Below are positions 2,896 through 16,333 of a stretch of 24,919 bases of DNA, in pieces; positions within the stretch are counted from its first letter, which is position 1; each line of letters starts with the position of its first letter. A program made the position numbers and the translations under genes. The stretch lies in the NCBI GenBank assembly GCA_934593275.1, contig CAKTQE010000032.1, positions 1 to 24,919 of the forward strand, read 5' to 3'. The notes under the pieces were generated by a model. That model saw nothing but the letters and a program-made list of their open reading frames with translations. It was not told the origin of the DNA and did not search any database. This DNA is from an uncultured Oscillospiraceae bacterium. Lineage in GTDB: Bacteria > Bacillota > Clostridia > Oscillospirales > Oscillospiraceae.

Positions 2896-4842
2896 TTATA
2901 GATTTTCGATTTCTTGGAGCCAGATTCTGCCGCTGGCATCGCTGGGCATGCGCCAGTCTCCACGGGGGCTGAGACAGACAGAACCGACTTTCACGCCGTC
3001 CGGCAGGCAGCTTCGTTTGAACTGCTGGGTGAAGAAGCGGCGGTAGAACGCTTTCATCCACTTTTGAATGGTCTGTGGCTCAAATTCTTCCCGGAACGCC
3101 CGACATGCCAATGCGTAGATTTTTGTGGGAGAGAAGCCGAAGCGCAGCATATAATAGAGGAAGAAATCATGCAGGGCATAGGGTCCCACCAAGTCCTCCG
3201 TGTATTGGCTGATTTTCCCGGCGGCATCCGGGGGCAGCAGTTCCGGGCTGATGGGGGTATCCAGAATATCTTCCAGCACCTCCTTTGCCTGGGAGAAATG
3301 CTCATTTTCCGCAATGGAGGCAATCATCCAGCGGATCAGGGTCTTGGGAATGGAGGCGTTGACACCGTACATGCTCATATGGTCTCCATTGTAGGTACAC
3401 CAGCCCAGTGCCAACTCGCTGAGGTCCCCGGTTCCAATGACGATGCCCCCAACCACGCTGGCATAATCCATTAAAATCTGGGTCCGCTCCCGGGCCTGGG
3501 CATTTTCATAGGTGCCGTTCAAAACGCTCTTATCATGGCCAATGTCCCGGAAGTGGCCGTCAACCGCCTGGCGGATATTGATTTCCTTTACGGAAATGCC
3601 CAATTTTTCCATCAGGTCCAAGGAATTGCGATAGGTTCTGTCCGAGGTACCGTAGCAGGGCATGGTAACGCCCCATACATCTGTTGCGGGACGGCCCAGC
3701 TGGGCCATGGCTTCCACAGCTACAAGCAGCGCAAGGGTGGAATCCAAGCCACCGGAAATGCCCACCACCGCCTTGCAGCCTAGGATTTCCAGCCGGCGGC
3801 GCAGTCCCGCCACCTGCATTTGAAAAATTTCCATGCAGCGTTCATGCCGGTCCTGTTGGCCGGAGGGTACAAAGGGCAGCTTCTCCAGGTGATACAAGTT
3901 TCCGTCAGAGCGAAGAGGTTCCCGGCTTCCCGGAATCACCTTTTGGGAAAGCATAGGCGCAAAGGCCGCCGCATTATCAGAAAAAGTTTTGTTCTTCCGG
4001 CGGTCTGCCCGAATCTGCCCCAAATCGCAGTCCCGGATCAGTAAAGTCTCTGAGACCATAGCCTCCTGGGTCTGGCCCAGCAGGGTGCCATTCTGGGCGA
4101 TCAGGCACTGACCGGAGAAAATCAGGTCCTGGGTACTCTCTCCCGTTCCCGCAGAGGCATAGGCATAAATGGAGGTCGTAGCGGCAGACTGATGCTTTAC
4201 CAAATCCCGGCGATAGGCCCGTTTTCCGATGGTCTCATTGGAGGCGGAGAGATTCACGATCACCTCTGCACCGCTGAGGGCCAGGACAGAGGAGGGCGGC
4301 ACCGGTGTCCACAAATCCTCGCATATCTCCACCCCCAGTTTGACCCCCTCCCCCAGCAGGAACAAGGACTTGGCGGAAATGGGAGCTTGGATGCATCCCC
4401 GGTGGGGCAATTCCAGGACTGCCATATCGGTACGCAGCTGGTTTCCGGAAGCAAACCAGCGTTTTTCGTAGAATTCATTGTAGTTGGGCAGATAGGTCTT
4501 CGGCACCAGGCCCAACAGTTTTCCCCCGGAAATCACCGCCGCACAGTTATAAAGTTCCCCGTTTAAAGATAGCGGCAGACCCACCAGGGCCGTTACTCCA
4601 GGGCAGGACTCCGAACATTCCAAGACCATTTCCAGGCCCCGCAGGGTTTTCGCGTAAAGCGTCGACTGAAAAAACAGGTCCTGGCAGGTATACCCCGTCA
4701 AACTCAATTCCGGAAATACCAGTACATCTGCCTTTTGCCCGTCTGCGGTTTGAAGAATGGTACAGTGGTGTTCCGCATTTTGAATTGGGTCCGCCAAATG
4801 TACCGGCGGCACCGCACAGGCCACACGAATAAAATCCAGCAT
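2896..4842 (-). CDS. nadE: Glutamine-dependent NAD+ synthase
   Basis: This 648-residue enzyme makes NAD+ from deamido-NAD+, ATP and glutamine in the cytoplasm. The N-terminal nitrilase-type glutaminase (about 1-270) shows the Glu-Lys-Cys triad: E45 in FPELSLTGY, K115 in VPKTYLPNYNEFYE and C174 in GVEICEDLWTP. The C-terminal synthetase (about 330-648) has the N-type ATP pyrophosphatase loop SGGLDS (363-368), and TGDLSELALGWCTYNGDHMS (471-490), which binds the deamido-NAD and ATP. Size and layout match the large two-domain NadE class (as in Mycobacterium), not the short ammonia-dependent form. The ATG at 4842 has GGAG nine bases upstream. It lies alone between the metK terminator and the convergent dpaB, with a probable promoter at 4876-4904. 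Confidence 0.95.
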   Translation of the reverse strand: MLDFIRVACAVPPVHLADPIQNAEHHCTILQTADGQKADVLVFPELSLTGYTCQDLFFQSTLYAKTLRGLEMVLECSESCPGVTALVGLPLSLNGELYNCAAVISGGKLLGLVPKTYLPNYNEFYEKRWFASGNQLRTDMAVLELPHRGCIQAPISAKSLFLLGEGVKLGVEICEDLWTPVPPSSVLALSGAEVIVNLSASNETIGKRAYRRDLVKHQSAATTSIYAYASAGTGESTQDLIFSGQCLIAQNGTLLGQTQEAMVSETLLIRDCDLGQIRADRRKNKTFSDNAAAFAPMLSQKVIPGSREPLRSDGNLYHLEKLPFVPSGQQDRHERCMEIFQMQVAGLRRRLEILGCKAVVGISGGLDSTLALLVAVEAMAQLGRPATDVWGVTMPCYGTSDRTYRNSLDLMEKLGISVKEINIRQAVDGHFRDIGHDKSVLNGTYENAQARERTQILMDYASVVGGIVIGTGDLSELALGWCTYNGDHMSMYGVNASIPKTLIRWMIASIAENEHFSQAKEVLEDILDTPISPELLPPDAAGKISQYTEDLVGPYALHDFFLYYMLRFGFSPTKIYALACRAFREEFEPQTIQKWMKAFYRRFFTQQFKRSCLPDGVKVGSVCLSPRGDWRMPSDASGRIWLQEIENL

Positions 4843-6183: not shown

Positions 6184-6200
6184 AAAAGCGTAAATCGAAT

Positions 6201-6290
6201 CCTCATCTTTCGTCTGCCGCCGGATTTGGCACCTTGATAAACAGGTTGCCGGGTTTCATCGGGCCGTTCCCTCCACCACTCTTGATAAGG
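6201..6290 (-). promoter_or_regulatory. SAM-I (S-box) riboswitch aptamer
   Basis: The minus strand carries the S-box core in order: CTTATCAAGAG, GGTGGAGGGA, CCGATGAAACCCGGCAACC, then GGTGCCAAATCC and a closing GATGAGG. P1 pairs CCTTATC (6284-6290) with GATGAGG (6201-6207). SAM-I aptamers sense S-adenosylmethionine and usually terminate transcription of methionine/SAM genes, which fits metK directly downstream and the terminator at 6151-6183. Confidence 0.95.
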
Positions 6291-6312
6291 CTTTGTATGC
6301 AGTTTTTCCAGT

Positions 6313-10707: not shown

Positions 10708-10736
10708 TTGACTTTTTCTTCCTTTTCGCATAGAAT
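10708..10736 (+). promoter_or_regulatory. Promoter of the oadB leader
   Basis: TTGACT (10708-10713), a 17-bp spacer and TAGAAT (10731-10736) begin 11 bp after the preceding gene. Transcription should start near 10743, immediately before the riboswitch-like structure, leaving a leader of about 165 nt before oadB. Confidence 0.8.
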
Positions 10737-10745
10737 AAAGGGCAA

Positions 10746-10840
10746 GATAAAAGGGAGTAAAGGGCGGGTTCGGCCCCGCTGCAAGATCTCGTCATCACGG
10801 CGTTTGCCCGGGGTTTTGCGTTATGCTTGAGACTTTTATC
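10746..10840 (+). promoter_or_regulatory. Riboswitch, yybP-ykoY (Mn2+) type by eye
   Basis: The leader folds as follows. P1 pairs GATAAAAG (10746-10753) with CTTTTATC (10833-10840). GGGAGTA (10753-10759) follows. Then comes a GCGGG/CCCGC hairpin (10764-10768, 10775-10779). Next is an outer helix GCAAGA/TTTTGC (10781-10786, 10814-10819) enclosing CGTCA (10790-10794), a small GGC/GCC hairpin and CGGGG. This order of GGGGAGUA loop, P2, CGUCA loop and CCGG return strand is that of the yybP-ykoY Mn2+ riboswitch. The P1 3' strand is also the 5' arm of the terminator at 10830-10875, so ligand binding would allow read-through, the usual ON logic of that class. Family assignment is from memory. Confidence 0.62.
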
Positions 10841-10875
10841 ACAGTTTTGTGCTGTGATGAAGGTCTTCTTTTTTT
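10830..10875 (+). terminator. Leader terminator controlling oadB
   Basis: A stem of about 15 bp (10830-10844 with 10852-10866, 7-nt loop, three T-G wobbles) is followed by TTCTTTTTTT. It lies 33 bp before the oadB start and shares bases 10833-10840 with riboswitch P1, so the two structures exclude each other. Confidence 0.85.
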
Positions 10876-10907
10876 CCTTCACGCAGCGAATTTCAAGGAG
10901 GAATACT

Positions 10908-12029
10908 ATGGAAATCGCAAGCGTATTCGCAAATCTCTTGAATCTGACTCCCCAGATGCTCATCATGTATGCTCTGGGCGGATTCCTCATCTATCTGGCC
11001 ATTGCCAAAAAAATGGAGCCAAGTCTTCTGCTCCCCATGGGCTTTGGCACCATTCTGGTGAATCTCCCCCTGTCCGGAGCCATCACCCAGGGGGATGTAC
11101 CCGGGGCCTTAAGCGTGCTGTTTCAGGCGGGGCTGTCCAACGAGCTGTTTCCCCTGCTGCTGTTTATCGGCATCGGTGCCATGATCGATTTTGGGCCGCT
11201 GCTGGAAAAGCCCTGGTTGATGCTCTTTGGCGCGGCGGCTCAATTCGGCATTTTTGCCACCCTGATTCTGGCTGGCTTCTTCTTTGACCTGAAAGATGCG
11301 GCCTCCATTGCCATTATCGGCGCGGCAGACGGCCCCACCGCCATCTTTGTGGCCAATGTGCTGGGTTCTAAGTATTTAGGTGCCATTCTGGTGGCCGCCT
11401 ACAGCTATATGGCACTGGTACCCATTTTACAGCCCCCGGTGATCCGGCTGGTCACTACCAAGAAAGAGCGGATGATCCGGATGCCCTATCAGAAAGGCAA
11501 CGTTTCCAAGCGCACCCGGATTTTGTTCCCCATTCTGGTCACCATGCTCTCCGGCCTGGTGGCTCCTGCCAGTGCGGCCCTTGTGGGCTTTTTGATGTTC
11601 GGTAACCTCCTGCGGGAGTGCGGTGTGCTGAACGCCCTGTCGGAAACCGCCCAGACCACCCTGGCAAACCTTATTACCATTGTTCTGGGTCTCACCGTTT
11701 CCAGCCAGATCACCGCCGATGCTTTCTTGCGTCCGGATACCTTGCTGATTCTGGCTCTTGGCGGTCTGGCCTTTATTGGAGATACCATTGGCGGCGTGCT
11801 GTTTGCCAAGTTCGTCAATCTCTTCCTGCCCCAGGACAAGAAAATCAACCCCATGATCGGTGCCGCCGGAATTTCTGCTTTCCCCATGAGTGGCCGGGTG
11901 GTAAATCAGATGGGACTAAAAGAAGACAATCAGAATTTCCTGCTGATGTATTCCATCAGTGTCAATGTCTCCGGTCAAATTGCCTCCGTCATTGCCGGTG
12001 GCCTGATCCTCACCCTGATGGGTGTTTAA
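10908..12029 (+). CDS. oadB: Sodium-translocating decarboxylase beta subunit
   Basis: This 373-residue membrane protein is the beta subunit of the oxaloacetate/methylmalonyl-CoA/glutaconyl-CoA decarboxylase Na+ pumps. The beta subunit decarboxylates the carboxybiotin intermediate and exports Na+. The key motif IIGAADGPTAIF (136-147) contains D141, equivalent to the essential Asp203 of the Klebsiella enzyme. NPMIGAAGISAFPMSGRVV (314-332) is the second conserved block. About nine to eleven membrane segments are present. The ATG at 10908 has AAGGAGG upstream; the open frame upstream lies in the leader. Transcription passes through a riboswitch and terminator. A 40-residue gamma-like protein follows 13 bp later, but no alpha (carboxyltransferase) or biotin-carrier gene is nearby, so the substrate cannot be named. 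Confidence 0.92.
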   Translation: MEIASVFANLLNLTPQMLIMYALGGFLIYLAIAKKMEPSLLLPMGFGTILVNLPLSGAITQGDVPGALSVLFQAGLSNELFPLLLFIGIGAMIDFGPLLEKPWLMLFGAAAQFGIFATLILAGFFFDLKDAASIAIIGAADGPTAIFVANVLGSKYLGAILVAAYSYMALVPILQPPVIRLVTTKKERMIRMPYQKGNVSKRTRILFPILVTMLSGLVAPASAALVGFLMFGNLLRECGVLNALSETAQTTLANLITIVLGLTVSSQITADAFLRPDTLLILALGGLAFIGDTIGGVLFAKFVNLFLPQDKKINPMIGAAGISAFPMSGRVVNQMGLKEDNQNFLLMYSISVNVSGQIASVIAGGLILTLMGV

Positions 12030-12042
12030 GGAGGTGAAGAAA

Positions 12043-12165
12043 ATGCCCTATCCAAACGCTCTTGTTGAAACCCTGCCCATGCTGGTAAAGGGGATGCTCG
12101 GAATTTTCCTGGTGATCAGCACCATCGCTCTGATCACATGGCTTTTTAATAAACTTTTCCACTAA
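12043..12165 (+). CDS. Mini gamma-like subunit of the sodium pump decarboxylase
   Basis: This short gene encodes 40 residues and starts 13 bp after oadB, behind a perfect AAGGAGGTGA (12028-12037) eight bases from the ATG. The product is one membrane helix: a short polar start (MPYPNALVETLP), then LVKGMLGIFLVISTIALITW (14-33) and a basic/aromatic end (FNKLFH). The GM-x-G-x-x-F-L-V pattern is that of the N-terminal helix of OadG-type gamma subunits, which anchor alpha to beta. The rest of OadG (the Pro/Ala linker and Zn-binding tail) is absent. A strong terminator follows immediately. The gene is seen directly; the OadG relationship is inferred from position and helix pattern. Confidence 0.7.
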   Translation: MPYPNALVETLPMLVKGMLGIFLVISTIALITWLFNKLFH

Positions 12166-12272: not shown

Positions 12273-12299
12273 AGCCTCAGACAGGATTGGAGGGATACT

Positions 12300-13517
12300 A
12301 TGGCGAAGGACTACCAGGACTGGGACGCTTTGGGCCACAGCATCGAAGACATTATTGACCAGGCCATTAAATCTAAAAATTATCAGGAACTGAGCCGAAC
12401 CATTACACATACCATTGACAAGGCCACATCCGCCGGGTCTGACGCCCTGTGGAAAGCACTGGACCTTTCCGGCACCATGCGCGCCCGTTCCAGCACCCAA
12501 AAAACAACGGTAACAACGACTACCACAACCGCTTCCCCGCAACCTCCAAAGGCCCAGCTGCCCGCCCTTTACGGCAGCCCCAACGGGCAGACGGCGACGG
12601 GCATTCTGAAAACCGTTTTTGGCGGTATGTTGACCATTGCCGGATTTACCCTTTCCCTGATTTCCGGTATTTTTGCATTGGTCGGCATGGCCGGTTCCTT
12701 TGTGGTCCCTTTGTGCTTTGGGGTGGGTTCTCTTGGCCTTGGCAGCTGGCTTTTGACCGGCGGCATCCGGGTTTTGGGTAGGGTCAGCCGTTATAAGGTT
12801 TACCTGAAAACCCTGGGACAGAAAACCCACATGAGCCTGGAACGTCTGGCCAGAAGCGTGGGAAAAAACGAGAAGTTTGTCCGCAAGGAACTGTCCGGCA
12901 TGATCGATGAGGGGCTGTTTCTGGAAGGACACTGGGACAAGGAGCAACAGAACCTGATTACCAGCAACGAAACATTCCAGAGCTTTGAGAAAAGCCGCAT
13001 GGAGCTGGAAGCCCGGCAGCGGGAGGAAGCCGCAAGGGCGACTGTGACGGCTCCGGCAAAAACCGTTTCCCCCAAGGTTCAGGAGGTCCTGGACCGGGGC
13101 AATGCCTATTTGCAGGAAATTCGGCGGTGTAACGATGAGATTCCCGGAGAGGAGATTTCCGCAAAAATTGACAGGATGGATGCCATTGTCCTGAGAATTT
13201 TTGAGCGGGCGGAAGCCCACCCGGAGATCATTCCGGATCTGAAAAAGCTGATGGACTATTACCTGCCCATGACCATCAAGCTTCTGAATGCCTATGCGGA
13301 CATGGACCGACAGCCCATCCAGGGCGAGACCATTCTGGCCTCCAAGCAGGAAATTGATGCCACCCTGGACACCTTGAATCTGGCCTTTGAAAAGCTGCTG
13401 GATTCCGTTTTCCAGGACACGGCCATGGACGTATCCAGCGACATTTCCGTATTGCACACCCTTTTGGCCCAGGAAGGGCTGACTGGGGATGATTTTAAAA
13501 ATAACGTAAAGGAGTAA
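12300..13517 (+). CDS. XpaC-like protein (5-bromo-4-chloroindolyl phosphate hydrolysis family)
   Basis: This 405-residue membrane-anchored protein fits the XpaC family, which usually sits beside telA. Its parts in order: an N-terminal helical region (1-60), a Thr/Pro-rich linker (65-100), two membrane segments (about 104-126 and 130-158), a winged-helix-like stretch (MSLERLARSVGKNEKFVRKELSGMIDEGLF, 178-207) as seen in this family, and a long helical C-terminal domain (255-400). The family name comes from a B. subtilis phenotype and does not establish an enzyme activity; I see no phosphatase motif. The ATG at 12300 follows GGAGGG. It is separated from telA by 4 bp, so the two are cotranscribed and probably act together at the envelope. 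Confidence 0.8.
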   Translation: MAKDYQDWDALGHSIEDIIDQAIKSKNYQELSRTITHTIDKATSAGSDALWKALDLSGTMRARSSTQKTTVTTTTTTASPQPPKAQLPALYGSPNGQTATGILKTVFGGMLTIAGFTLSLISGIFALVGMAGSFVVPLCFGVGSLGLGSWLLTGGIRVLGRVSRYKVYLKTLGQKTHMSLERLARSVGKNEKFVRKELSGMIDEGLFLEGHWDKEQQNLITSNETFQSFEKSRMELEARQREEAARATVTAPAKTVSPKVQEVLDRGNAYLQEIRRCNDEIPGEEISAKIDRMDAIVLRIFERAEAHPEIIPDLKKLMDYYLPMTIKLLNAYADMDRQPIQGETILASKQEIDATLDTLNLAFEKLLDSVFQDTAMDVSSDISVLHTLLAQEGLTGDDFKNNVKE

Positions 13518-13521
13518 CCCC

Positions 13522-14667
13522 ATGGAACACGAATTTGAAAACCAGGAATCGGTTCCCACTCTGACTCTGGAACCGGAGCTGGAAGAAGTCCAACTTGCCC
13601 CCAAGGAAGAAACCGCCCCCGTGGAGGCTCCCATTCCTCAGCCGGTGCTAACCCCTCAGGAGCAGCAAATGGTGACGGACTTTGCCGCCAAAATTGATTT
13701 GGAAAACACCAACCAGGTGCTTCAATACGGCGCAGCCGCCCAGAAGAAAATGGCGGACTTCTCCGATGCCGCCCTGGCCAATGTCCGCACCCAGGATTTG
13801 GGGGAGATCGGTGACCTGATTGTGAATGTGGTGGGAGAGCTGAAAGGCTTTGACAAAGAGGAACCCAAGGGTTTTCTGGGCTTCTTCAAAAAGCAAAGTG
13901 ACAAATTGGAGTTGATGAAAAGCCGCTACGACAAGGCCGAGGTCAACGTAGAGAAAATCAGTGATGCTTTGCAGCAGCACCAGGTTCGGCTCTTAAAGGA
14001 CTCTGCGGTGCTGGACAAAATGTACGAGCAGAATCTGGCCTACTTCAAGGAATTGACCATGTATACCCTGGCCGGCAAGCAAAAGCTCCAGGAGGTACGG
14101 GAGGGCAAGCTGCGGGACTTGGAAGCCACCGCCCAGCGGACGGGCCTTGCCGAGGATGCCCAGGCCGCCAGGGACTTGGCTGAAAAATGCAACCGGTTTG
14201 AAAAGAAAATCTATGACCTGGAACTGACCCGCACCATCTCCATCCAGACTGCTCCGCAAATCCGCATGATTCAGAACAACGACACCGTGATGGTGGAGAA
14301 AATTCAGACCACCCTGGTAAATACCATTCCTCTGTGGAAAAACCAGATGGTTCTTGCCCTGGGTATCGCCCATTCTACGGAAGCGGCCCAGGCCCAGCGG
14401 CAGGTCAATGACGTGACCAACGCACTGCTGAAATCCAATGCCGAGAAGCTTCGCCTGGCCTCCACGGAAACCGCCAAAGAGGCGGAACGGGGCATCGTAG
14501 ATCTGGAAACCCTGAAACAGACCAACGCCCAGCTCATTCAGACCCTGGATGATGTGATGAAAATCCAGTCCGATGGCCGCGCCCAGAGACAGGCCGCCGA
14601 AACGGAAATGGCAAAAATGGAGCAGGAGCTTAAAAACAAGCTGCTGCAAATCCGAAACGGGAAATAA
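13522..14667 (+). CDS. telA: TelA-family protein (toxic anion resistance)
   Basis: This 381-residue soluble protein belongs to the TelA family (toxic anion resistance, PF05816), linked in various bacteria to tellurite, cell-wall antibiotic and colicin resistance, usually beside an XpaC-like gene. It is almost entirely helical. It has an acidic N-terminus (1-45), then the core with GFLGFFKKQSDKLELMKSRYDKAEVNVEKI, the helices MYEQNLAYFKELTMYTLAGK and LELTRTISIQTAPQIRMIQNNDTVMVEKI, the NTIPLWKNQMVLALG block typical of TelA, and a C-terminal coiled coil (about 310-377). The start has AAAGGAG upstream and lies 4 bp after xpaC. The biochemical role is not established for the family. A terminator follows. 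Confidence 0.9.
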   Translation: MEHEFENQESVPTLTLEPELEEVQLAPKEETAPVEAPIPQPVLTPQEQQMVTDFAAKIDLENTNQVLQYGAAAQKKMADFSDAALANVRTQDLGEIGDLIVNVVGELKGFDKEEPKGFLGFFKKQSDKLELMKSRYDKAEVNVEKISDALQQHQVRLLKDSAVLDKMYEQNLAYFKELTMYTLAGKQKLQEVREGKLRDLEATAQRTGLAEDAQAARDLAEKCNRFEKKIYDLELTRTISIQTAPQIRMIQNNDTVMVEKIQTTLVNTIPLWKNQMVLALGIAHSTEAAQAQRQVNDVTNALLKSNAEKLRLASTETAKEAERGIVDLETLKQTNAQLIQTLDDVMKIQSDGRAQRQAAETEMAKMEQELKNKLLQIRNGK

Positions 14668-14719: not shown

Positions 14720-16333
14720 TCATTCTTCGTTTGTTGTCATAAGAAGCTTTTGCAGCAGCATCAAATCCATCAAATCAATTTTTCCGTCAGCGTTCAGGTC
14801 GGCGTTTCCGGTTTCCACCGGGATATTCTGGCCCGCCAGGTAGCGGCGCAGACGTAACAGATCTGCGGAGGTAATGCGTCCGTCACCGTTGACATCACCG
14901 GGAATGCCCACGGTGACCTGCACGGAACCGGCACTGGTATCCACCGCCACAAGCTCTGCCTGGGCGTTGACACCGGAAGCCTCCGTCAGTGTGACAGGAA
15001 TTTCCCCCTGGGGGGCATCCTGGGCGATTCTGAAATCCAGGGTCAGAACCACGCCGTTTTTGTCCGTTTCATCGGGCTGGAGCCACAGGGCCTTTTCGCC
15101 CTCGCCAATGCCCACCGTCCAATCGCCCAGGGCAAAGGTCTCGGAAGTGCAGTCAAAATCCTCCAGGGTCAGGCGGCTTTTGTCGTAGTCGATCTGGAAA
15201 TTTAGGCCGCACAGGCCGGGGTTGTCAGTCAGGGTGATTTCCAACCGGACTTTCTGCCCCGGCTGGGCACTGGCCTGGGCCACCGTCAGCAGGGGTACCT
15301 GGGTCCGGGTCTTGCCGGATGTCTCGGTTTTCGTTGCATCGGTGGTTTCCTCTGGGACGGTGGTTTCGGCATTCTCTGCTCCGTCATTCTCGGACGGCTC
15401 CGCCGAGTCATCCTGAGGTGCCGTTTCTTCTGAAAGCTCCGAAGACTCCAAGACTACAAATTCGATGTTCCGTTCCTTGGCAAAGGTTTCCGCCGCAGTA
15501 CCGATAAAGCCCATGATTTGTTGGGCGTCATCCAGCGCATCCTCATCAATTTCTTCAATGGACTCCGGAAAAGTCACCGTAGATAGCTTCCGGCACAGGG
15601 TAAATGCCCCGGCGTCTACTGCCGTGATCCCCTCTTCCAGAATAACGTCCGTAATATCTCCCCGCATCTCGTCCCAGGGGTAGTAACGCTGCCCCTCCGG
15701 CAGTGCCACTGCGCCGGTACCCGTTACCGTCAGCACACCGCCGCTGAGCTGCCAGGTGCCGCCGGACCAGCTGCCCGCGCCATCCCGGAGCTTGCGGCTG
15801 TCGATTTGGTGGAATTTGCCGCCGCTGGCGGTTATGTAGTCCTGAACCCCTGTACCGGCAGTACAGTTGATGATGGTTGCCTTTTCAAAGGCGTTATCCC
15901 CTACCCAGGCAACACTTCCCGGAACGAATACGCTGGTCAGACCTGTACACCCGGAAAAGGCCTTTTCTCCAATGCCCACAAGGCCCTCCGGCAATGTCAC
16001 CCAGTTGATGGCGGCGCAATTTTCAAAAGCACTGTCATGGATATACCGCAACCCCTGGGGAAGGGTCACAGAGGAAAGGGCCGTACAGTCCTTCAGGGCC
16101 TCCGCCTGGATGGCGGTAATGCCGTCATCCACCCGCAGGCTCTTGATTTCCTCTTTCCGGTCCTCCCAAGGGAAGGGCTGGGCAAAATCCATTTCCCCCT
16201 GGCCGGTGATGCACAGCACCCCCTCTTCCAGAGACCAGCCCTGTTCCGGCTCCTCCGCCGCTGCCCCTGCCGCCAGCAGGAACAAAACGGAAACGCACAA
16301 GACGGCGGACAGTATCGCTTTCAAACTTCTCAT
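14720..16333 (-). CDS. Secreted leucine-rich-repeat protein with cohesin and dockerin domains
   Basis: This 537-residue protein is exported. A signal peptide (1-26: basic start, hydrophobic core, cut likely after AGAAA) leads into BspA-type leucine-rich repeats (about 60-180 and 225-275; e.g. AFENCAAINWVTLPEGL and AFSGCTGLTSVFVPGSV). An acidic/Thr-rich linker (297-345) follows. A cohesin-like domain (about 346-475, with LNFQIDYDKSRLTLEDFD) comes next. A type I dockerin ends the protein (479-532), with the two calcium loops DVNGDGRITSADL and DLNADGKIDLMDL. The ATG at 16333 has GGGGGAG four bases upstream. It starts 21 bp after ftsH with no visible promoter, so it is probably cotranscribed. Its role is likely scaffold or surface adhesion. 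Having both cohesin and dockerin is like a small adaptor scaffoldin. Confidence 0.85.
   Translation of the reverse strand: MRSLKAILSAVLCVSVLFLLAAGAAAEEPEQGWSLEEGVLCITGQGEMDFAQPFPWEDRKEEIKSLRVDDGITAIQAEALKDCTALSSVTLPQGLRYIHDSAFENCAAINWVTLPEGLVGIGEKAFSGCTGLTSVFVPGSVAWVGDNAFEKATIINCTAGTGVQDYITASGGKFHQIDSRKLRDGAGSWSGGTWQLSGGVLTVTGTGAVALPEGQRYYPWDEMRGDITDVILEEGITAVDAGAFTLCRKLSTVTFPESIEEIDEDALDDAQQIMGFIGTAAETFAKERNIEFVVLESSELSEETAPQDDSAEPSENDGAENAETTVPEETTDATKTETSGKTRTQVPLLTVAQASAQPGQKVRLEITLTDNPGLCGLNFQIDYDKSRLTLEDFDCTSETFALGDWTVGIGEGEKALWLQPDETDKNGVVLTLDFRIAQDAPQGEIPVTLTEASGVNAQAELVAVDTSAGSVQVTVGIPGDVNGDGRITSADLLRLRRYLAGQNIPVETGNADLNADGKIDLMDLMLLQKLLMTTNEE

Follow-up and report, generated by a model that had tools for sequence, protein, structure and literature searches.

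What does the RNA in front of a sodium-pump gene respond to, and why should such a gene be placed under it? The question is raised by a 24,919-nucleotide stretch of DNA from an uncultured Oscillospiraceae bacterium (assembly GCA_934593275.1, contig CAKTQE010000032.1; hereafter the window), in which a promoter and a structured leader precede an oadB paralog, a member of the beta-subunit family of sodium-translocating decarboxylases. A preliminary description had placed this leader in the yybP-ykoY (Mn2+) riboswitch class. Judged by sequence comparison, the window RNA is a real, conserved and divergent member of that class which the Rfam model RF00080 misses, and the earlier interpretation is partly supported overall. 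Two results go beyond it: the regulated oadB belongs to a clade whose OadG is truncated, and the riboswitch family stands before many other cation-transporter genes. The surprise is the partner, because behind this kind of RNA the OadB clade stands where known metal exporters do elsewhere.

The comparison rests on related oadB leaders and on two covariance models. Alignment A1 contains the window leader and its 22 closest oadB leaders (23 rows) and is the sole source of model R1; model R2 was built from alignment A6, from which the worst-aligned leaders were left out (L034, L036-L038, L055, L060, L063, L071, L075, L077 and L124). Both models draw heavily on oadB leaders, and later alignments were fitted to the models and are thus biased towards them. 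The elements of the leader, with the basis of each, are the following.

10708-10736, plus strand: sigma-70-type promoter, TTGACT - 17 nt - TAGAAT (sequence; pattern against shuffles)
10745-10841, plus strand: riboswitch aptamer, assigned to the yybP-ykoY (Mn2+) class (R1 and R2 scores, related oadB leaders, covariation)
10746-10753, plus strand: 5' strand of P1, the switch helix, GAUAAAAG (98.9% of A1 cells paired)
10754-10759, plus strand: 5' strand of L1, GGAGUA (GAGUA invariant in 62/62 aligned leaders)
10760-10762, plus strand: 5' strand of P2, pairing with 10826-10828 (A1 pairing)
10765-10778, plus strand: P3 hairpin (covariation alignments)
10781-10819, plus strand: P4 stem, 10781-10790 with 10810-10819, bearing L3 and the inner hairpin (covariation alignments)
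10791-10798, plus strand: L3, GUCAUCAC (sequence; alignment of 62 leaders)
10799-10808, plus strand: inner hairpin GGC-GUUU-GCC above L3 (97.1% of cells paired)
10829-10832, plus strand: 3' strand of L1, GAGA (AGA invariant in 62/62)
10833-10840, plus strand: 3' strand of P1, CUUUUAUC, common to the 5' arm of the terminator (A1 pairing; terminator overlap)
10829-10875, plus strand: intrinsic terminator, hairpin 10829-10867 and T tract 10869-10875 (folding; pattern against shuffles)

Within the window, the consensus promoter claimed at the outset was recovered (one occurrence, where shuffles average 0.2), while the terminator pattern, with a hairpin of -23.2 kcal/mol, is by itself not unusual (one occurrence, shuffles averaging 0.4). 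The fold of 10737-10875 is better than that of 200/200 shuffles (z -3.93), and GGAGUA (10754-10759) precedes CGUCA (10790-10794), in the yybP-ykoY order described earlier. P1 is best read as GAUAAAAG with CUUUUAUC, pairing 10746-10753 with 10833-10840. Two overlapping open reading frames (ORFs), starting at 10823 and 10827, were rejected: both begin inside the aptamer and have no gene evidence.

Comparison of the leaders of related oadB genes, which the preliminary description had called for, gave a clear result. The leader is present before 36/80 related oadB loci, 35 recognised by the pattern GGAGTA...CGNCA...RAGACTYTT and one (L055) by R1. Over the 29 pairs and 23 leaders of A1 there are 73 cells changed on both sides against 29.8 in shuffles, and 87.6% of the cells of the structure from P1 to P5 are standard pairs against 77.8%; none of 500 shuffles reaches either value. 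Slid controls gave 5-18 both-sides-changed cells and 33.6-51.7% paired. The larger, model-fitted alignment gave 817 such cells against 264.5 in shuffles and 97-174 in slid controls. Covariation of the aptamer helices is thus strong. RNAalifold on a wide MAFFT alignment recovers P1 only, because the hairpins differ in length.

The loops are conserved as well. Besides the invariant GAGUA and AGA of L1, the first G of the 5' strand is kept in 60/62 leaders (one A, one gap); L1 is described as sarcin-ricin-like in excerpts of PMC6754395, and the other published work cited below by its PMC number is likewise drawn from excerpts. The adenosine column of L3 reads A in 61/62 leaders and is a gap in the other, a few leaders (e.g. 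L038) being out of register, and the pair beside L3 (10790-10810 in the window) is C-G in 84/85 rows with letters. The segment 10745-10841 is a conserved aptamer behind a promoter.

The relation to known Mn2+ riboswitches was approached through RF00080 itself (Rfam 15; 177 positions, cut-off 45 bits) and through our own models. At gathering cut-off no Rfam 15 family matches the window leader, RF00080 included; at E up to 10 there are five chance-level matches. The name RF00080 was likewise given to none of the 20 leader loci scanned with Rfam 15. Run over the 21 whole genomes with a riboswitch-linked oadB that served as our comparison set, RF00080 points to 14 loci, none above its cut-off. R1, in turn, recovers all 14 oadB leaders that were held out from it, at E 1e-11 to 4e-4. 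Among the 14 loci derived with RF00080 it picks exactly the six that precede mntP, at E 4e-5 to 5e-3 for a search of 592 kb (genes identified by tblastn). R2 finds the same six at E 8e-10 to 2e-6. The window aptamer scores 92.5 bits with R1 and 83.5 bits with R2, the window having been included in building both. On the E. coli control, R2 places alx exactly (4373-4502 of L130, coding sequence at 4581; E 0.046). The covariance-model check thus came out divided: the proposed class is borne out by homology with mntP leaders and by the kept Mn2+-site nucleotides described below, and not by a match to RF00080.

The metal site carries this assignment further. In the published structures, five phosphoryl oxygens bind Mn2+ together with N7 of an invariable adenosine, A48 in Xanthomonas oryzae (ACA48U49ACU52) and A41 in Lactococcus lactis (UCA41AU43UC), and an L1 adenosine makes an A-minor contact to a C-G pair (excerpts of PMC6754395), the counterpart of the conserved pair beside L3; the site nucleotides named are G9, U39, C40, A41, U44 and C45 (PMC9190785, in part). 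Set beside these excerpts, A10794 corresponds to A41/A48, and in the window L3, UCA(10794)UCAC, four of the five L3 site nucleotides are kept (U39, C40, A41 and C45). G9 would also be kept, provided that A10 of L1 is the A of GGAGUA. One oadB leader (L196) and one ATPase leader (L243) carry UCAAUUC, identical to the L. lactis L3 as excerpted. The L. lactis riboswitch, with its UCA-type L3, is a Mn2+-specific ON switch in the excerpted part of PMC9190785, and since the metal-site nucleotides are also largely kept, we favour Mn2+ as the probable ligand of the window RNA.

Several observations weigh against this assignment. RF00080 misses the window leader even at E 10; this absence says little, because RF00080 also leaves the six mntP leaders below its cut-off of 45 (12.1-24.0 bits). 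In the consensus printed for RF00080, P1 and P2 are both left unpaired. On the E. coli control both mntP and alx escape R1 at E 1, and R2 misses mntP. The position of U44, by the excerpted L. lactis numbering, is an A in the window L3, and the L3 type of the mntP leaders differs from that of the oadB leaders, which could mean another ligand. P2 is weak in the window's clade: of its four pairs, columns 18-110 pair in 9/23 rows and 19-109 in 14/23, while a rival extension of P3 (columns 17-57 and 18-56) pairs in 23/23 and is changed on both sides. In the window, the 5' strand of P2 competes with this extension, in which 10761-10762 pair with 10779-10780. The two pairings are mutually exclusive, and the window's clade may have shortened P2, whose cells are paired in 93.6% of cases across 86 leaders against 75.0% in the clade (A1). 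Finally, the gene can do without the riboswitch, because 44/80 oadB loci lack the leader (one of these, L064, has no upstream DNA). By eye, some Faecalibacterium oadB genes without the riboswitch seem to share another, GC-rich leader (loci L011, L012, L013, L017, L024, L029 and L072).

How would such an RNA act? As described earlier, the 3' strand of P1 lies inside the 5' arm of the terminator, and the same holds in 35/36 leaders examined; the sole miss is L039, where the hairpin was cut short by the search pattern. The terminator hairpins of the 36 leaders range from -13.4 to -34.2 kcal/mol. In L. lactis, P1.1 is kept in place by Mn2+ and the terminator cannot form (PMC11087558, in the part drawn on). 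From this precedent and the overlap of P1 with the terminator we infer an ON switch, in line with the anatomy proposed in the preliminary description. One review, in the excerpt available, calls Mn2+ riboswitches OFF switches, contrary to the other papers cited here (PMC11477304).

In the mechanism that we propose, at low ligand the nascent RNA would fold the terminator (10829-10867) and transcription would end before oadB. A cation, most likely Mn2+, would bridge L1 and L3 and keep P1 closed; closed P1 would withhold its 3' strand from the terminator, and RNA polymerase would then proceed into oadB and the truncated oadG. Mn2+ would thus most likely turn oadBG on. The product of oadB would help to balance cations, in one of two ways that could also account for ion control of a Na+ pump: it could export the cation itself, or it could export Na+ and so power the exchange of metal for Na+. 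We judge it quite likely that the leader works as described, as an ON riboswitch of the yybP-ykoY class that acts through transcription termination.

The regulated genes were then characterised, and the OadB-like identity claimed for the first of them is confirmed by profile. The elements downstream of the terminator are:

10895-10901, plus strand: ribosome-binding site AAGGAGG (sequence)
10908-12029, plus strand: oadB paralog, 373 aa, sodium-translocating decarboxylase beta family (PF03977, TIGR01109, 6iva alignment, tree)
12043-12165, plus strand: 40-aa single-helix protein, truncated OadG-like (position; OAD_gamma matches of relatives)

The oadB gene starts with ATG at 10908, and its product matches PF03977 OAD_beta with 476.9 bits (E 4.6e-143) and TIGR01109 with 403.7 bits; the closest named relative retrieved is from Pseudoflavonifractor sp. 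MSJ-30 (89% identical). The 21 genomes with a linked oadB carry 2-3 oadB genes each at 350 bits or more. These are of two kinds. A tree of 114 proteins (quick method) separates 86 of the window's kind from 28 of a second kind by a branch with 100% support, so that the riboswitch-controlled oadB belongs to a clade apart from the second oadB of the same genomes. Mapped onto the window's kind, presence or absence of the riboswitch takes 13 changes to explain, and well-supported branches force at least five of these. The tree and the residue table below cover proteins of 330-480 aa, which leaves out L011, L012, L017 and L072 among others; L095, L153 and L157 are absent from the tree as well.

The two kinds also differ in their small partner. 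The second kind has a full-length OadG directly upstream in 21/21 genomes (frames mostly of 92-161 aa), whereas an ORF of 37-68 aa lies behind most linked oadB genes of the window's kind; in several rows the scan for this small ORF called the wrong frame or none. The 40-aa protein of the window matches no Pfam or NCBIfam family. The corresponding sites in G012 and G013 match OAD_gamma positions 2-53 (E 4e-6) and 2-41 (E 0.008), respectively; since only the first part of OAD_gamma is matched, the tail of OadG appears to be missing in the window's kind.

Searched by tblastn (two OadA queries and one MmdA query in the correct frame), the window shows no OadA or MmdA, and neither does the DNA flanking 36 linked loci, taken to a distance of up to 3 kb. 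PYC_OADA occurs once in 20/21 genomes and is absent from G008. We considered the second oadB kind as the copy of a decarboxylase operon and rejected this: PYC_OADA adjoins it in G001, but OadA lies within about 1.5 kb in only 9/28 second-kind loci, and in one of seven wider regions (13-15 kb) but not the other six. Neither kind, then, usually has an alpha subunit alongside, and separation from it is not special to the riboswitch copy. The window's clade can live with an alpha subunit, because four of its 44 unlinked loci (L065, L067-L069, all Erysipelotrichaceae-like) have OadA about 1.4 kb upstream. A search for MmdA-type partners with TIGR01117 gave sub-cut-off matches only, in 19/21 genomes; those of about 450 aa are mostly on the PYC_OADA contig. 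In most of the genomes G002-G021, PYC_OADA and this MmdA-like protein lie close together, away from oadB, and resemble a separate carboxyltransferase pair.

Seven residues, which we take to be important in OadB, were located through the 6iva alignment: D203, Y229, N373, G377, S382, R389 and N412. Loss of pump residues in the riboswitch-linked copy could be dismissed, as all seven are kept in every row examined (48/48 linked, 39/39 unlinked and 28/28 second-kind; row L095 duplicates L001). The residue after G377 is A in 89/89 window-kind and S in 28/28 second-kind proteins.

These features could be read as an alpha-free cation transporter, in which the riboswitch-controlled OadB and its cut-down OadG would form an unrecognised efflux system for manganese or another divalent ion and the GNCA aptamer may sense an ion other than Mn2+. 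If true, OadB would be swapped with P-type ATPases, Na+/Ca2+ exchangers, TerC and GDT1 under one riboswitch. We consider this reading unlikely, the more so as OadA is rare beside the second kind too and lies near four members of the clade.

Elsewhere in the window, the oadB unit is followed directly (12294-14667, plus strand) by genes for a PF10112 protein and for TelA (PF05816), which confers resistance to toxic anions by its family annotation. One protein on the minus strand (14720-16333) combines leucine-rich repeats, a cohesin domain and a dockerin domain. A SAM riboswitch (RF00162, 76.6 bits) stands at 6200-6291 on the minus strand before an apparent metK.

The riboswitch family extends well beyond this gene. 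R1 at E 0.1 has matches in 39/300 genomes of the family, and R2 at E 0.01 in 201/394 genomes of the order and 198/391 of the class, counts in which the two samples overlap in some genomes and search filters lose weak matches. About half of the sampled genomes therefore carry a leader recognised by R2, yet RF00080 named none of the 20 loci scanned; the riboswitch is common to many gut Clostridia. Partner genes, sought downstream on the strand of the RNA, were read in 125 loci: OadB 47, P-type ATPase 29, Na_Ca_ex 23, CitMHS 10, NaPi 4, MntP 2, GDT1 1, TerC 1 and others 8. Because the models are rich in oadB, the first 85 loci top-scoring and the other 40 hand-picked from the middle of the list, these counts lean to oadB. 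The 30 best R1 loci of the family scan gave OadB 11 (one of them from G001, the genome of the training locus L001), CitMHS 7, Na_Ca_ex 6, P-type ATPase 3 and NaPi, NfeD and an unknown gene 1 each. The 55 top R2 loci, assigned by blastp to seeds (L216 separately), gave OadB 29, P-type ATPase 10, Na_Ca_ex 9, NaPi 3, CitMHS 3 and HlyD 1, and the 40 mid-score loci P-type ATPase 16, Na_Ca_ex 8, OadB 7, MntP 2, M48 peptidase 2 and GDT1, TerC, K_trans, Band_7 and TetR 1 each. A leading partner of the riboswitch family in Clostridia is thus oadB, which ties the decarboxylase sodium-pump family to metal-ion control and suggests a role, open to testing, for an oadB paralog that Faecalibacterium, Gemmiger and other gut bacteria carry. 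Two loci carry two copies of the riboswitch on one strand about 1.2 kb apart (L170, 1501-1593 and 2752-2844; L204, 1501-1601 and 2653-2750), and in L237, L247, L229 and L230 the family precedes M48 peptidase, K+ transporter and Band_7 genes.

The sequence of L3 varies with the partner. By a pattern test, in which a few of the strings listed (e.g. GGCAGGCC) are clearly not L3, the GNCA type is found in 80/82 OadB, 22/22 Na_Ca_ex, 9/10 CitMHS, 4/4 NaPi and 26/29 ATPase leaders, and the AACA type in 7/8 MntP leaders, the one GDT1 leader and 3/29 ATPase leaders, the remainder being unclassified. Both types are present in 6/21 genomes.

Such a distribution invites another reading, in which GNCA marks a variant of the yybP-ykoY fold with a different ligand, Ca2+ or another divalent ion. 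Such a ligand would fit Na+/Ca2+ exchangers and ATPases of the Ca2+ type more readily than MntP. In its favour, L3 type tracks the gene and a single genome may keep both; a review, as excerpted, points to work in preparation and holds that common yybP variants probably respond to divalent ions other than Mn2+ (PMC7266159). Nevertheless, the L. lactis aptamer, which has been crystallised and responds to Mn2+, has a UCA-type L3 as well, as far as the excerpts go, identical to that of the oadB leader L196; the adenosine that donates N7 is kept, and L3 type may only mark descent. We consider a different divalent ligand unlikely. The genomes with both types offer natural pairs with which altered specificity of yybP variants becomes directly testable.

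Mn2+ sensing has two further competitors. A plain attenuator or protein-bound leader that senses no ion would account for the strong terminator, but L1 and L3, needless for a bare terminator, are among the most invariant parts and the helices of the leader covary, which makes it very improbable. A Na+-sensing leader, of the Na+-I (DUF1646) type suggested in the preliminary description or of a new Na+ class, would provide feedback on a Na+ pump, and Na+-I riboswitches do precede oxaloacetate decarboxylase genes, such as pycB of A. cellulolyticus (PMC9337991, in part). The Rfam search up to E 10 returned no Na+ class, the Na+-I model included, and the window leader is clearly homologous with mntP leaders; the Na+ reading has accordingly been abandoned as the least probable of those weighed. 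Apart from the Na+-I paper, the literature we searched holds no report joining yybP-ykoY with oxaloacetate decarboxylase, although the class-defining papers of 2015 may list oadB, and a search on manganese riboswitch and OadB surfaced only one unrelated paper.

Compared with known systems, the window RNA shares only its kind of partner gene with Na+-I. RF02617 (SSRC10, Streptococcus sRNA 10) resembles the leaders in a consensus holding GGGAG, CGUCaaU and gaGaC, and matches 3/20 of them (L166, L185 and L199) at 31.6-36.7 bits, below its cut-off of 56; it is filed as an sRNA, unlike the window leader, and may be a misfiled Mn2+-type riboswitch. The window OadB keeps the seven aligned functional residues of the oxaloacetate decarboxylase OadB/OadG (6iva), from which it differs by its separate clade, its truncated OadG and the lack of an alpha subunit alongside in the window.

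The closest likenesses are to the Mn2+ class. As in RF00080, we find P1 and L1 with a P2 that is weak in the window's clade, a side hairpin, a P4-L3 arm, GGAGUA with RAGA, CA and a conserved adenosine in L3, and P1 as the putative antiterminator; the differences are GNCA in L3, where the RF00080 consensus reads AACA, and the oadB paralog as the regulated gene. The L. lactis yoaB riboswitch (PDB 4Y1I), as known from the excerpts, likewise has a 7-nucleotide L3 starting with UCA and is a transcriptional ON switch that sets P1.1 against a terminator, an anatomy that the window shares. It differs in its L3 (UCAAUUC there, UCAUCAC here), in P2, which is weak here, and in its gene product, a P-type ATPase where the window has an oadB paralog.

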